From Thermoanaerobacterium xylanolyticum LX-11 (GTDB lineage Bacteria > Bacillota > Thermoanaerobacteria > Thermoanaerobacterales > Thermoanaerobacteraceae), in assembly GCF_000189775.2 (NCBI RefSeq), contig NC_015555.1, forward strand, positions 206,501 through 270,500: 64,000 nucleotides of DNA, read 5' to 3'. Below, piece after piece: positions 56,139-61,808 of this stretch; within the stretch, counting starts at the first letter, position 1, and the number at the start of each line of letters is the position of its first letter. The notes under the pieces are model-generated. The model was not told the DNA's origin. It did not search any database and was given only the letters and a program-made list of their open reading frames with translations. The position numbers and the translations under genes were made by a program.

Positions 56139-56459
56139 TCACTTTTGAATTATGTTTGTTGCACCGCATTGTTCCATTGTCTCTCTTATTTTAGACACTT
56201 CTTTCTTAGGTGCTTCGACTGTAATGAGTATTCCGGAGTCAGCGTCATCAATATAGAAGTCCGTATAAGGTCTTTTTTCACCTAAGCCTTCTCTTTCTGA
56301 CTTTATATCTATAGCATTGTCAACCATAAAATCCATATCCTGCACAGATTTTTTCATATTTGTTATGATCATGTCTTTTCGATCGAAACCCATCTTTTTT
56401 AAACTGTCGACTAATGCGCTTGCCATACCTTGAGTAGGGAATACGGCCGTTATTTTCAT
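56139..56459 (-). CDS. Conserved hypothetical protein, 106 residues
   Basis: A soluble protein opening MKITAVFPTQGMASALVDSL and KKMGFDRKDMIITNMKK, then an acidic linker and a second beta-alpha unit (SGILITVEAPKKEVSKIRETM, CGATNIIQ). The beginning and end look like a small ferredoxin-like or general-stress (YflT-like) fold, but I do not recognise the family. GGAGGTG precedes the ATG. It is divergent from the ArsM-like operon and separated from it by about 75 bases up to that promoter. Confidence 0.65.
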   Translation of the reverse strand: MKITAVFPTQGMASALVDSLKKMGFDRKDMIITNMKKSVQDMDFMVDNAIDIKSEREGLGEKRPYTDFYIDDADSGILITVEAPKKEVSKIRETMEQCGATNIIQK

Positions 56460-56534: not shown

Positions 56535-56592
56535 TTTACTTTGTTAAATTATTGTGGTATACTATCATTTAGTACCACCCCCTATCTAGGGG
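56535..56592 (+). promoter_or_regulatory. Promoter plus CsoR-type operator of the rSAM/Cys-peptide operon
   Basis: TTTACT (56535-56540) and TATACT (56558-56563) are 17 bases apart. Fifteen bases downstream is CCCCC-TATCTA-GGGG (56578-56592), flanked by A/T. C-tract/spacer/G-tract sites of this kind are bound by CsoR/CstR/FrmR-family repressors that sense Cu(I), persulfide, Ni or aldehydes. The position overlaps the start of the transcript. No CsoR gene is in the window, so the regulator must be elsewhere. Confidence 0.55.
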
Positions 56593-56626
56593 ATATATGA
56601 TGCATTTAATAAAAGGTGGTGACGAG

Positions 56627-57256
56627 ATGGAAGCGAAAGAAAACATAATAAATAGATACGAAAAATTAGCTGAAGAAGATGACAATTTAAGCTGTGGCGG
56701 CAAGAATATCGTTTTGGCAGATTTAAAAGAAGGAGAAAATGTGCTTGATTTAGGATGTGGCAGAGGAAATGACGTTTTAAATGCTGCAAAGATAATAGGT
56801 GAAAGAGGAATTGCAGTAGGTCTCGATCTTACTGAAAAAATGATCGAAGAAGCTGAAAAAAACAGAAAGAAGCTTAATATAAAGAATGCTGAGTTTGTTG
56901 TAGGAGATGTTGAAAGCATACCACTTGAAAGTGAAAAGTTTGACGTTGTCATAAGCGATTGTGTGATAAATCATGCAAAAGACAAAGAGAGAGTTTATAA
57001 AGAAATTTACAGGGTTCTTAAAGCTGGTGGAAGATTTATTGTTTCAGACGTGGTGTCAAAAGATAGACTTCCAGATGAGATTGTAAATGACCCTGAAGCT
57101 TGGGCTGACTGCTTCGGCGGAGCTATTCCGGAGGAAGATTATATAAAAGCCATAAACAATGCAGGTTTTAAAGAAATAGAATATCTTAAAAAGCGTGAAT
57201 ACATGAAAAATGGATATCCAGTTGCAAGTATAACAATCAAAGGTATTAAAAGGTAG
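56627..57256 (+). CDS. ArsM-like SAM-dependent methyltransferase
   Basis: A 209-residue class I methyltransferase. SAM motif I is VLDLGCGRGNDVLNAAK. The arsenite methyltransferase pattern follows: VVISDCVINHAKDKERVYKE (the NCVIN-type Cys) and DPEAWADCFGGAIPEEDY (the second conserved Cys). The usual N-terminal Cys pair is reduced to one Cys (LSCGGKN). Methylation of As(III) or another soft element is plausible; a thiol or peptide substrate is possible given the neighbours. The ATG at 56627 follows AAAGGTGGTGA. First gene of the operon. Confidence 0.8.
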   Translation: MEAKENIINRYEKLAEEDDNLSCGGKNIVLADLKEGENVLDLGCGRGNDVLNAAKIIGERGIAVGLDLTEKMIEEAEKNRKKLNIKNAEFVVGDVESIPLESEKFDVVISDCVINHAKDKERVYKEIYRVLKAGGRFIVSDVVSKDRLPDEIVNDPEAWADCFGGAIPEEDYIKAINNAGFKEIEYLKKREYMKNGYPVASITIKGIKR

Positions 57257-57285: not shown

Positions 57286-57393
57286 GTGAAAGCTGTAACA
57301 AATAAGAATTCAAATTGCTGCACAACACAAAACAGCAGTGTTGCACAATGCTGCTCAAAGTCATCGAAGCTTGTTGTAGGCTGCCATGACTAA
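57286..57393 (+). CDS. Cysteine-rich 35-residue peptide, candidate rSAM substrate
   Basis: GTG start behind a near-perfect AAAAGGAGGTGA site, implying strong translation. The product is MKAVTNKNSNCCTTQNSSVA, then QCCSKSSKLVVGCHD. Cysteines fall at 11, 12, 22, 23 and 33, that is CC-x9-CC-x9-C with an 11-residue period. It sits between a methyltransferase gene and a radical SAM/SPASM gene, and a hairpin follows, the usual layout for a RiPP precursor. It could instead be a small metal-binding peptide. No homologue is recognised. Confidence 0.7.
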   Translation: MKAVTNKNSNCCTTQNSSVAQCCSKSSKLVVGCHD

Positions 57394-57439: not shown

Positions 57440-58798
57440 TTGTACTTTAGTAAGTATAACATGATTCTACCTTTTAGTGAAGAGAAAAATGACTTTATTA
57501 TTTTAAATTTGCTATCAGGTAGTTCAGATATTGCTTCAAAAGATGAGGTAGATAAGCTTTATGATATAAAATCGGGTAAGGATGTTTACGACATCGATTT
57601 TCTCGATTACGTCATTGACAGAGGATATGTATATGAAGAAAAAGAGCATGAGGATATAAGGATAAAAGAAGCGTATGAAGAATTTAAGGAGATAATGGAT
57701 GAATCGCCAACACAGATATTGCTGGTGCCAACGTATGGATGTAATTTTTCTTGCATCTATTGCTACGAAAGAGGAATACCAACAAAGAAAGATTTAATAA
57801 CGAAAGAGGCTGTAGATGCCTTTTTTGATGATATAAATGATAGGTTTAAGTTGGAGAAGGTAAGGCCGTACATTACGCTCTTTGGTGGAGAGCCTTTTAT
57901 AGACACAGATGTTCAAAAAGACATTATTAATTATATTGTAGAAAAGAGCAAGCTGTACGGTTATGAGATAGCTGCAGTTACTAATGGTTACAATGTATTA
58001 GAGTATATAGACATCCTTAAAAAAGGGAATGTGAAAGAAATACAGGTAACTCTTGATGGGCCTAAGGAAGTCCACAACAGGCGAAGAAAGCTATTAGGCG
58101 GTGGAGATAGTTTTGAAAAGATTCTATTGGGAATTGACAGCCTAATCGAGAATGACATGCCTGTGAATTTAAGGGTTGTGGTTGATAAAGACAATTATTC
58201 TTATCTGCCGGAATTGGCAGAAATTCTTGATAAAAAAGGGTATCTCAATCTGGATGGTACTAAATTTAAGACGCAGATAGGCAGGAATTATGAGCTTTTC
58301 GAATGTTCCTTAAACCATCAAAGCCTTATGTCACAAGTGGAGCAGTGGGCTACATTTGTAGAGCTATCTAAAAAGTATTCAATACTTAAAAAATTTCATA
58401 AACCAGATTTTAAAGGCATGAGAAATGTGCTTGTTTCAGGTACTATGTATTCTCCTACATTTGATACATGTCCTGCTGGCAAAAAAGAATGGCTTTACGA
58501 TTTGTACGGCGATATATATGGATGTACTGCAAGCTGCGGTAGGAAAGATTATCGCTTAGGTACTTTTTATCCTGAGAGAAGGATTTTTGATGATAAAGTT
58601 TTGCCGTGGAAAGAGAGAAACGTCTTAAATATACCACAGTGCAAAGAATGCCCTGTAAGTTTAGTTTGCGGCGGTGGCTGTGGAGTCGTCGCGAATGAAA
58701 GAAATGGCAGTATATTATCTCCTGATTGTAGAGACATAAAAAAATTATATGAATTAGGTGTTGAGTATTACAGAGATGAAGTATTAATTCAAGATTAA
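57440..58798 (+). CDS. Radical SAM/SPASM peptide-modifying enzyme
   Basis: A 452-residue enzyme. It starts MYFSKYNMILPFSEEKNDFI, a typical N-terminus of peptide-maturase rSAM proteins with a RiPP-recognition-like region before residue 90. The [4Fe-4S] site is Cys101-x3-Cys105-x2-Cys108 (GCNFSCIYCYE). A C-terminal SPASM domain carries DTCPAGKKEW, GCTASCG and CKECPVSLVCGGGCGVV for extra clusters. The start is the TTG at 57440, eight bases after AAGGAG. Its likely substrate is the adjacent cysteine peptide. Thioether or epimer products cannot be predicted. Confidence 0.9.
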   Translation: MYFSKYNMILPFSEEKNDFIILNLLSGSSDIASKDEVDKLYDIKSGKDVYDIDFLDYVIDRGYVYEEKEHEDIRIKEAYEEFKEIMDESPTQILLVPTYGCNFSCIYCYERGIPTKKDLITKEAVDAFFDDINDRFKLEKVRPYITLFGGEPFIDTDVQKDIINYIVEKSKLYGYEIAAVTNGYNVLEYIDILKKGNVKEIQVTLDGPKEVHNRRRKLLGGGDSFEKILLGIDSLIENDMPVNLRVVVDKDNYSYLPELAEILDKKGYLNLDGTKFKTQIGRNYELFECSLNHQSLMSQVEQWATFVELSKKYSILKKFHKPDFKGMRNVLVSGTMYSPTFDTCPAGKKEWLYDLYGDIYGCTASCGRKDYRLGTFYPERRIFDDKVLPWKERNVLNIPQCKECPVSLVCGGGCGVVANERNGSILSPDCRDIKKLYELGVEYYRDEVLIQD

Positions 58799-58820: not shown

Positions 58821-60089
58821 ATGGTAAGAGAAATCAATGCTAATGAATTTGAAGAGGTTGTTTTAAATTCTAAAAAGCCAGTTGTAGTAGATTTTTATTC
58901 TACTGATTGTCCACCGTGTGCCCAACTAAAACCGATATTTCATAGATTAGCCGATGTATATAAAGATCACATGGAATTTGTTGAAATATACAGACAAGGC
59001 AATAAAGATTTAGCATTAAGCCTTGGCGTAAAAGGAAGCCCTACACTTTTGTTCTTTAGAGACGGTAAAGAAACTGGTGAGAGATTAAATGGATATATTT
59101 CAAAGCCAGATCTTCGCAAGGCAGTAGAAAAGGTGATAGGTTTTTCACTTTTGGACAAAGAGCCAGAGAAGGTTGAGTGCGATGTTCTAATAATGGGCGG
59201 AGGACCTGCAGGTCTTACGGCTGCTTTGTACTCAGCAAGGGCAAACTTGAAGACGGTTGTCATAGATGAAGCAACTACAGGCGGTCAAGCAGCAAACACA
59301 TATTATATAGAAAATTATCCTGGAACAGAAGGTCAGATCGAAGGAAAGAAATTGACGGAAAACATGAGAAAACAGGCAGAAAGCTTTGGTGCAATCATTG
59401 ATGATTTAAAAGAAGTATTTGAGATTAAGCTTACTGACGATGAGAAATTTGTAAGAACAGAGGACAAGATATACTATCCTAAAGCTGTTATAATAGCTAT
59501 GGGAGCGCAGCCAAGAAAGCTTCCTGCAGAAGGAGAAGCTGAATTCAGAGGAAAAGGCATTCACTATTGTGCAATATGCGATGGTGCAATGTATGAAGGA
59601 AAACACGTGGCTGTAATAGGTGGAGGCAATTCTGCCATTCAGGAAGCATTGTACCTTGCAAACATCGCTGACAAGGTAACGGTTATACACGAATTCGATA
59701 ATTTACAAGCTTCAAATGTGCTGCAAGAAAAAGCCTTTACCAATCCTAAGATAAACTTTATTTGGGAGTCTCACGTTGTAAAGGCAAATGGAGATGGAAT
59801 GCTTAAATCTCTGACGTACAAGAACCTAAAGACAGGTGAACTTAAAGATATAGAAGTTGATGGCGTATTTGTCTACATTGGTCTTACACCTAAGACAGAC
59901 ATATTCAAGGGAATACTTGAGTTAAATCAATATGGCTACATCAAAGCAGATGAGGATCTAATGACAAATGTGAAAGGCGTATTTGTTGCTGGTGATATAA
60001 GAGATAAAAAGATAAGGCAAGTTGTCACTGCAGCAGGAGATGGAGCCGTTGCTGCTGTAAGCGCAGAAAGGTATATACAGGAGCTGTGA
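58821..60089 (+). CDS. Thioredoxin-thioredoxin reductase fusion
   Basis: A 422-residue protein. Residues 1-105 are a thioredoxin domain with active site Cys30-Pro-Pro-Cys33 (STDCPPCAQLKP). Residues 118-422 are a TrxB-type flavoprotein: FAD motif MGGGPAGLTAAL, redox pair Cys250/Cys253 (CAICDG), NADPH motif GGGNSAIQEAL and the end GDIRDKKIRQVVTAAGDGA. The fusion passes NADPH electrons to a disulfide via its own Trx. In this operon it may keep the cysteine peptide or metalloid reduced. AAGGAGG precedes the ATG. Confidence 0.95.
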   Translation: MVREINANEFEEVVLNSKKPVVVDFYSTDCPPCAQLKPIFHRLADVYKDHMEFVEIYRQGNKDLALSLGVKGSPTLLFFRDGKETGERLNGYISKPDLRKAVEKVIGFSLLDKEPEKVECDVLIMGGGPAGLTAALYSARANLKTVVIDEATTGGQAANTYYIENYPGTEGQIEGKKLTENMRKQAESFGAIIDDLKEVFEIKLTDDEKFVRTEDKIYYPKAVIIAMGAQPRKLPAEGEAEFRGKGIHYCAICDGAMYEGKHVAVIGGGNSAIQEALYLANIADKVTVIHEFDNLQASNVLQEKAFTNPKINFIWESHVVKANGDGMLKSLTYKNLKTGELKDIEVDGVFVYIGLTPKTDIFKGILELNQYGYIKADEDLMTNVKGVFVAGDIRDKKIRQVVTAAGDGAVAAVSAERYIQEL

Positions 60090-60126
60090 TTTTGCATACT
60101 TTTAAAAAGTATGAAAGGAGATAATG

Positions 60127-60873
60127 ATGGAGTGCTGCGAGACAAAGTACATGGAAAATTGCATGATATGTGGGAAGCCGCTCATGTATTTAGAAAAGCC
60201 AGTATTGAAAAGATGCGAATACTGTGGTATAGAAGAATTAACTCTTGCCCACTGTACGGATGGGCACTACGTTTGCGACAAATGTCACGCAAAGGACGGC
60301 ATTGAGGTCATAAAGGATTATTGTCTGTCTACAGATTCTAAAGACCCTATGGAGATTGTGGAAAATATCATGTCAGACAGCAGGATACCAATGCATGGAC
60401 CAGAACATCATGCATTGGTTCCTGCAGCAATAGTCACGGCTTACAAAAATTTGACAGGAAAAGTTTCTGACGAGGATATCTTAGAGGCCGTAAACCGTGG
60501 GAAAGAGATTCCTGGCGGAGCATGTGGTTATTATGGTGCCTGTGGTGCGGGTATTGGAATCGGTGTTGCTATTTCCGTCATTTACAAAGCTACACCTCTT
60601 ACACCTCTTAAAAGGACTAAGGCACATTTAGCTGTTGCAAGTGCCCTTAAAAGCATCGGTGAAGCTGGTGGTGCCAGATGTTGTAAGAAATGTACAAGGA
60701 TATCAATAGAAGAAGCAGTAGAATTTTTTGAAAAAGAATTGAATGTCAAATTTCCTACAACTTTTGAAAGGACAGATGATTGTAATTACTCAAAGAGAAA
60801 CAGGGAATGCTATTATATGTGCAAGTACAGAGACGTGGAAAAGTCAGAAAGGAGTGTGAAATATGGGTCTTGA
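60127..60873 (+). CDS. Cysteine-rich DUF5714-like protein
   Basis: A 248-residue soluble protein with 18 cysteines. The N-terminal third carries three CxxC knuckles (CMICG, CEYCG, CDKCH) of zinc-ribbon type. The middle has GPEHHALVPAAIVTAY, and the core motif GGACGYYGACGAGIGIGVAI with Cys133/139 is followed by ARCCKKCT (185, 186, 189), reminiscent of C-GCAxxG-C-C redox proteins. The C-terminal cluster is DDCNYSKRNRECYYMC. A redox or metal-handling role is inferred. The ATG at 60127 fits AAAGGAG better than 60124. It overlaps the DUF302 gene by 11 bases. Confidence 0.75.
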   Translation: MECCETKYMENCMICGKPLMYLEKPVLKRCEYCGIEELTLAHCTDGHYVCDKCHAKDGIEVIKDYCLSTDSKDPMEIVENIMSDSRIPMHGPEHHALVPAAIVTAYKNLTGKVSDEDILEAVNRGKEIPGGACGYYGACGAGIGIGVAISVIYKATPLTPLKRTKAHLAVASALKSIGEAGGARCCKKCTRISIEEAVEFFEKELNVKFPTTFERTDDCNYSKRNRECYYMCKYRDVEKSERSVKYGS

Positions 60874-61246
60874 CATCACTAAAGAAGTGGCTTATTCATT
60901 TGCTGAAGCTGTGGAAAAGGTTAAAGAAGCTTTGAAAGGCGTAGGATTTGGAATATTAGTAGAGATTGACATGAAAGATACGATAAAAAAGAAAATAGGC
61001 AAGGATATGATGAACTACGTCATACTTGGTGCCTGCAATCCCACTTATGCTTACGAGGTATTAAACATTGACCCCGAAGTAGGGCTTTTGCTGCCTTGCA
61101 ATGTGATTGTGTACGAAAAAAGCGATGGCAGTGTAGTTGTATCGGCAATTGATCCTTTAAAGGCATTGCCTTCTAATGATGAAAAATTGTCTAAAATTGC
61201 AGAAGAAGTTGCTGATAAGTTGAAAAAAGCCATAGATGTGCTGTAG
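60863..61246 (+). CDS. DUF302 protein
   Basis: A 127-residue protein with the DUF302 fold: FAEAVEKVKEALKGVGFGIL, ILGACNPTYAYEVLNIDPE and GLLLPCNVIVYEK. The two conserved Cys (GACNP and LPCNV) are present. DUF302 proteins form small dimers of unknown function and often sit near sulfur or metal genes. AAAGGAG stands eight bases before the ATG, which lies inside the previous gene, so translation is coupled. Confidence 0.88.
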   Translation: MGLDITKEVAYSFAEAVEKVKEALKGVGFGILVEIDMKDTIKKKIGKDMMNYVILGACNPTYAYEVLNIDPEVGLLLPCNVIVYEKSDGSVVVSAIDPLKALPSNDEKLSKIAEEVADKLKKAIDVL

Positions 61247-61268: not shown

Positions 61269-61808
61269 TTGGCAATTGATATTGAATCAGATTTGAAACG
61301 GGCTTTAGATCTATTGGGTGAAGGACATGTGTTTGCGCTGGACGTAGGTACTGGTAGAGCACGTATGGCTTACGCATTGGCCAGGTACGGCTATGATGTG
61401 GTGTCGTTAGAGTACAATATTGACACGCTAAAAAAAGCTAAAGAAATCATAAGCAATGAAGATGTGGAAGGCAAAATCTTGTTTGTGCATGGTGATGCAC
61501 ATAGGATGCCGTTTATTGATGAATCTTTTGAGGTTGTCGCATCTTACAATGCAATGCACCACATGAGCGACTATAATGTTGCCATTGATGAGATGGTGAG
61601 AGTACTGAGAAAAGGCGGCAAGATATTGATAACAGAGCTTAACGATGTAGGCAAGGAAAGAGTTGCCGAATCTCACAGGCAAAGAGGAAGCCATCATGAA
61701 GCAAAAATAGACATTTACGATGTAGTAAATTACCTTAAAGATAAGCACAATATTGTAGGTGAGATTTCTAAAGGAGAATTTATCGACATATTTTACGGAG
61801 TAAAATAA
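61269..61808 (+). CDS. Class I SAM-dependent methyltransferase
   Basis: A 179-residue methyltransferase. The SAM loop is ALDVGTGRARMAYALARYG, with acidic motif II in SLEYNIDTLKK and a motif-IV-like VVASYNAMHHMSDYN. It ends after LITELNDVGKERVAE and a His-rich segment (SHRQRGSHHEAK). The substrate is unknown. The start is a TTG at 61269 six bases after AGAGGTGAT. It is the last operon gene; no terminator follows before the tRNA-Glu promoter. Confidence 0.85.
   Translation: MAIDIESDLKRALDLLGEGHVFALDVGTGRARMAYALARYGYDVVSLEYNIDTLKKAKEIISNEDVEGKILFVHGDAHRMPFIDESFEVVASYNAMHHMSDYNVAIDEMVRVLRKGGKILITELNDVGKERVAESHRQRGSHHEAKIDIYDVVNYLKDKHNIVGEISKGEFIDIFYGVK

Follow-up and report, generated by a model that had tools for sequence, protein, structure and literature searches.

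A stretched C-run/G-run site as a candidate CsoR-family operator of a conserved peptide, radical SAM and thioredoxin reductase operon in Thermoanaerobacterium

Introduction

As a reference for known operators we used excerpts of three papers (PMC3902906, PMC10318464 and PMC4938975). In these excerpts, CsoR operators are pseudopalindromes of G/C tracts with TAC and GTA and two to four bases between the tracts (PMC3902906), and a C-run/G-run pseudopalindrome is the described hallmark of CsoR/RcnR sites (PMC3902906, PMC10318464). The type-2 operator, taken from S. lividans, B. subtilis, S. aureus and L. monocytogenes, places its two G/C tracts at the promoter (PMC3902906). The M. tuberculosis CsoR operator, as quoted in PMC10318464, has a long C-run and G-run with CCACCCCC and AGT between the tracts, and its targets are copper genes. 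T. thermophilus encodes two CsoR-family proteins, TtCsoR and TTHA1953, that differ in their DNA sites. The second paralogue controls sulfur genes and is encoded remote from its targets, and one base more or less in its site lowers affinity 10-15-fold (PMC10318464).

We analysed a 64-kb stretch (the window), positions 206501-270500 of the complete 2.53-Mb genome of Thermoanaerobacterium xylanolyticum LX-11 (G000), whose near named relatives are Thermoanaerobacterium butyriciformans and T. saccharolyticum. A sequence-only reading had proposed that a CsoR-family-type operator, C5-TATCTA-G4, overlaps the transcription start of a radical SAM operon that lacks a local regulator, and that it links this operon to metal or sulfur stress.

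Results

A conserved peptide cassette behind a predicted promoter

The operon and its leader contain the following features, located by promoter scan, leader folding and Pfam/NCBIfam profile matches.

56535-56563, plus strand: predicted promoter, TTTACT (56535-56540), 17 nt, TATACT (56558-56563); TGTGGTATACT is invariant in nine congeners
56573-56597, plus strand: candidate CsoR-family operator with stretched C-run/G-run, region GTACCACCCCCTATCTAGGGGATAT, core at 56578-56592
56574-56620, plus strand: leader segment in which ACCACC (56574-56579) could base-pair with GGTGGT of the ribosome site (56615-56620) around the C4/G4 hairpin
56627-57256, plus strand: ArsM-like methyltransferase, first gene of the operon
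57286-57393, plus strand: 35-residue Cys-rich peptide MKAVTNKNSNCCTTQNSSVAQCCSKSSKLVVGCHD, between the ArsM-like and radical SAM genes
57440-58798, plus strand: radical SAM/SPASM protein, peptide-maturase-like, TTG start
58821-60089, plus strand: thioredoxin-thioredoxin reductase (Trx-TrxR) fusion
60124-60873, plus strand: DUF5714 protein
60863-61246, plus strand: DUF302 protein
61269-61808, plus strand: methyltransferase, the second of the run

The first gene product matched NCBIfam PRK11873 with 217.9 bits, below the cut-off of 263, so that it is related to ArsM arsenite methyltransferase but not assigned to it. The peptide matched no Pfam or NCBIfam family. Homologues of the radical SAM protein were found in 21 of 398 genomes of the phylum (E up to 1e-60), and in 25 of 26 related loci (L035-L046, L065-L077) the peptide ends in the near-invariant AQCCSKxxx(I/L/V)(I/V)xGCH(D/N). 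A distant relative with 31% identity (L078, genome G156) has no peptide and was excluded from the cassette counts. The NCBIfam maturases CefB, TIGR04463 and Clo7bot likewise pair a short Cys-rich peptide with a maturase-like radical SAM/SPASM protein, but the window protein scores far under their family cut-offs, and here the pair is coupled to an ArsM-like protein and a Trx-TrxR fusion while the peptide belongs to no family. Literature searches for this cassette and for a CsoR-thioredoxin regulon in Clostridia, judged by their listings, turned up nothing on either.

A divergent 106-residue gene on the minus strand (56139-56459), without a Pfam or NCBIfam family, shares the intergenic region and also adjoins the cassette in G001, G005 and G006.

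The candidate site resembles a lengthened CsoR operator

The core CCCCCTATCTAGGGG lies exactly at 56578-56592, as had been read, 14 nt past the -10 box. The promoter predicts a start at about 56570 and therefore places the site at about +8 to +22. The proposed overlap with the transcription start was thus nearly right: the site lies just downstream of the predicted start. The promoter scan returned two promoter-like sites, compared with an average of 1.3 in shuffled sequence. A search of the window for CCCCCTATCTAGGGG with up to three mismatches gave only one further match, the same site read on the reverse strand; shuffled sequence predicts 0.32 matches per window. Both runs are flanked by A/T-rich bases, and flanking repeats are weak.

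Like the type-2 operator, the site consists of two G/C tracts forming a pseudopalindrome over the promoter and start region. It differs in having six bases rather than two to four between the tracts and no GTA nine bases past TAC (PMC3902906); no TAC-X9-GTA inverted repeat occurs at 56570-56600. It shares the long C-run/G-run of the M. tuberculosis operator, with TATCTA where that operator has AGT (PMC10318464), and the genes behind stretched sites here are redox genes, in contrast to the copper genes of M. tuberculosis. An RLKTxxGH stretch is common to CsoR2, one of two host CsoR proteins described below, and M. tuberculosis CsoR; together with the long site, this likeness is only suggestive. 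The TTHA1953 site, as excerpted, is unlike the window site in lacking a G/C tract and in its target genes (PMC10318464).

The site is conserved in orthologous operons

The sequence-only reading had staked the operator on its presence in orthologous operons, and this expectation held. The site is kept in all nine Thermoanaerobacterium genomes (G000-G008) and, in altered form, in both genomes from another family of the order, as CCCCCTATACCATAGGGG (G022) and CCCCTCTACCCTGGGGG (G020). The core reads C5-TATATA-G4 in six Thermoanaerobacterium genomes, C5-TATAT-G5 in G001 and C4-TCCATAT-G5 in G005; TATCTA occurs solely in the window genome. In aligned congener promoters the TGTGGTATACT box and GTACCACCCC are invariant, and the leader downstream of the site diverges more.

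Among 14 more distant peptide-bearing cassettes, six carry a clear site before the first gene. Four of these (G040, G086, G146, G306) have an exact TAC-X9-GTA at the operon start, matching the type-2 pattern; G260 has a canonical TAC/GTA site one base longer, and G203 has C5-TGGAGA-G4 shortly past a TATACT. The G121 match, TACCAATTAGGGGGTA, was treated as doubtful, given its overlap with the ribosome site. The other seven cassettes (G157, G083, G155, G145, G276, G115, G312) showed no site in these scans. In the clusters of G040 and G086, extra sites also precede TrxR, a rex-type gene and an unknown ORF. Across 20 loci, a site was found within 150 nt of 15 of 69 cassette genes and of 10 of 198 other genes, the latter including several sites shared with a divergent neighbour, and close relatives in these counts are not independent.

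The rex-type gene adjoining the cassette in G086 and G040 has a canonical CsoR-type site, TACCCTAAGGGGGTA (L108 11457; L112 11442, reverse orientation).

Two host CsoR paralogues and their possibly different site geometries

The host has two PF02583 genes, at 1118875 and 1508160, both far from the window, and blastp with the two host CsoRs as queries found no csoR beside the cassette in 20 loci. A search for host CsoR/CstR genes, as the sequence-only reading had proposed, thus yielded two CsoR-family genes and agrees with its view that the operon has no local regulator of this family. CsoR2 matches PF02583 with 81.3 bits (curated cut-off 22.8).

The host csoR1 gene, followed directly by trxA, carries TACCTAATAGGGGTA just before the ribosome site. 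TACCT(A/G)ATAGGGGTA is found at csoR1 in all seven readable congener loci (G004 was unreadable). Elsewhere the csoR1 site is TACCCGT(A/G)AGGGGTA in G022 and G020, TACCTTATAGGGGTA in G009 and TAC-X9-GTT in all ten genomes of the next genus; the csoR1 loci of G021 and G023 have no such site. The host copA operon has the canonical site TACCCTTAAGGGGTA (L243 508-523). These csoR1 and copA sites fit the type-2 rule as excerpted (PMC3902906). The short TAC-X9-GTA at csoR1-trxA and copA therefore suggests that the copper branch uses a different geometry from the window site.

The host copA operon begins with a thioredoxin-like ORF. In G004 (L087) the csoR1 match carries an internal TAA, and the ArsM-operon site is intact in the same genome.

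No such site lies near the host csoR2. Three of ten near csoR2 loci have a stretched C-run/G-run site no more than about 100 nt past the gene, preceding trxA (G022, G020) or a DUF1858 gene (G005); none of 13 csoR2-like loci of a further set has one. In G260 and G306 the csoR2-like genes are followed by short sites and then trxA.

The DUF1858 gene of G005 (L090, minus strand, about 45-330 nt past csoR2) contains, in frame, the TGA of CFG-TGA-GGA, a possible selenocysteine codon.

Of the 66 CsoR-family loci read, all but the broken G004 csoR1 match and G157d encode both sensor cysteines. Of these 64, 16 have Tyr or Asn where the third copper ligand, His, would stand. In the persulfide sensor CstR the Cu(I)-site His is missing, and the 7mq1 chain has Asn in its place. 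Host CsoR1 and CsoR2 share the two conserved cysteines with CstR but retain the full C-H-C ligand set, while G040 and G086 have Asn. As CsoR2 keeps its His, metal sensing by this protein may remain.

Stretched sites precede other redox genes

The host ccdA-tlpA promoter carries a stretched site, GACCCCTCTATAGGGGGTA, which is kept with changes in nine of nine congeners. It is shorter in G020, G022 and the next genus, takes another stretched form in G021 and is absent from G040, G086, G306 and G260. An ahpD-like gene (CMD family) at 1816379 is preceded by GTACCCCATCATAGAGGGG, kept in all six genomes read; in G005, G007 and G008 the pattern was absent among the matches listed. NCBIfam contains ArsM-AhpD fusions, which fits a pathway common to the ArsM-like and ahpD-like genes. 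Measured from the start of the C-run to the end of the G-run, the window site spans 15 bases, and the ArsM class as a whole 15-18, the csoR2-linked sites 16-20 and the ahpD-like site 16. The csoR1 class spans 11, as do the TAC-X9-GTA sites of host copA and csoR1. The ccdA site spans 15-17 in Thermoanaerobacterium, 16 in G021 and 11 in G022 and G012.

Genome-wide counts of C-run/G-run patterns

Listing the C-tract/G-tract sites of the genome, another check proposed from the sequence, did yield sites, but with no enrichment over the reversed control: two loose patterns gave 5+7 matches versus 9+3 and 18+18 versus 15+15. We therefore rejected the tally as proof of a regulon; number alone proves nothing, and the case is carried by conservation and context. 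Individual matches were discarded as a c-di-AMP riboswitch (1190529), a T-box (2110063), a position within a gene (2141590) and a hairpin before uppS (1363523).

In the frr-uppS gap (L028 1501-1516 and congeners) the hairpin is conserved in nine genomes as ACCCCCTC-N4-GAGGGGG with a varying centre. A long palindrome, TTTATCCCCTATTTAGGGGATAAAT, precedes rpsL (348585; L006 about 1495-1522) and ACCCCTTAAAAGGGGG precedes pfkA (676146; L024 1501-1515); both were left out of the target count.

Discussion

We consider that the window site is, on balance, probably the operator of a CsoR-family repressor, most likely CsoR2, released by thiol chemistry. The site, its conservation and sharing, the csoR linkage in some relatives and the near-invariant cysteines are observed; binding, repression, the choice of paralogue and the ligand are inferred. 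Reduced CsoR2 would occupy both runs (about +8 to +22) and block transcription of the ArsM-peptide-radical SAM-TrxR operon. Modification of its two conserved cysteines, as a disulfide, a persulfide or with a thiophilic metalloid such as As(III), would make the repressor let go, and the operon would be induced alongside the thiol-redox genes that carry a stretched site (ccdA-tlpA and the ahpD-like gene). That 64/66 loci encode the two cysteines supports sensing through them, while the His is replaced in 16/64. We favour CsoR2 over CsoR1, since the short site belongs to copper-type targets while csoR2-linked sites of near relatives are stretched. As in T. thermophilus, one genome encodes two CsoR-family proteins, here with probably different DNA sites, and as with TTHA1953 in the excerpts the host CsoR genes are remote from this target (PMC10318464).

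Several observations count against this assignment. Linked stretched sites occur at 3/10 near and 0/13 further csoR2-like loci, and in G260 and G306 a short site follows the csoR2-like gene. Half of the distant cassettes show no site in these scans and one more is doubtful, and a CsoR reading does not account for the similar C/G hairpins upstream of uppS, pfkA and rpsL. The unenriched genome-wide counts, the C-H-C set of host CsoR2 and the possible leader hairpin also weigh against it. The variable spacing is a weak point given the spacing sensitivity of TTHA1953 in the excerpted data (PMC10318464), although two half-sites held by separate tetramers could perhaps tolerate it. The CsoR-family reading gains from conservation of the site in orthologues and from the canonical sites of distant ones, but the window site departs from the standard type-2 rule.

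Repression by the copper-type CsoR1, or by both paralogues together, through the same kind of operator, with Cu(I) inducing the operon, seems unlikely. Distant genomes such as G146, which have one csoR gene of the CsoR1 type and a short canonical cassette site, are compatible with it, as is the position of csoR1 next to trxA in the host; the 15-base span of the window site, with no GTA at the 11-base distance of copA and csoR1, argues against it. We regard as somewhat less probable again that the element acts as RNA, a 5' leader hairpin that modulates translation or transcript stability, perhaps by covering the ribosome site, and resembles a CsoR site secondarily. The leader does fold, the ACCACC-GGTGGT pairing is possible in G000, G007 and G008, the spacing varies as a loop would, and the hairpin before uppS is comparable in its freely varying centre. 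But the ribosome-site pairing is altered in G001 and G006, and in a pattern-independent reading of orthologous promoters the C arm is left and the G arm right in all congeners with no flipped pairs. The leader has no Rfam match (L005), and distant orthologues have canonical CsoR sites at the same place.

That an unrelated DNA-binding protein uses the site, or that it has no regulatory role, appears least probable of these. Such a reading would accommodate the variable spacing, and CsoR binding here is itself a prediction from sequence. It sits poorly with the hallmark C-run/G-run pseudopalindrome of CsoR/RcnR sites in the excerpts (PMC3902906, PMC10318464), with related motifs on csoR-linked promoters and with stronger conservation of the site than of the downstream leader.

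The proposed link to metal or sulfur stress can be narrowed for the CsoR2 reading. The target set (thioredoxin, TrxR, CcdA, TlpA, AhpD-like, ArsM-like) suggests a response to thiol or metalloid stress. The different, short site at the promoters of host copA and csoR1 makes the copper branch less likely.

More tentatively, a second, non-copper CsoR paralogue and its stretched operator may command a thiol-defence regulon of thermophilic Clostridia, centred on an undescribed ribosomal peptide system (CC...VAQCCSKSSKVVAGCHD, radical SAM, ArsM-like, Trx-TrxR) that could serve as an inducible trap or carrier for persulfide or metalloid. The site places a widely conserved, uncharacterised peptide, radical SAM, ArsM-like and TrxR cassette in a regulatory setting, probably the response to thiol or metalloid stress under a CsoR-family repressor. 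In such a setting the inducer of the peptide, and hence its function, becomes directly testable. The case of two paralogues, with a short site for copper and a stretched one for redox, also indicates how CsoR proteins may split DNA specificity.
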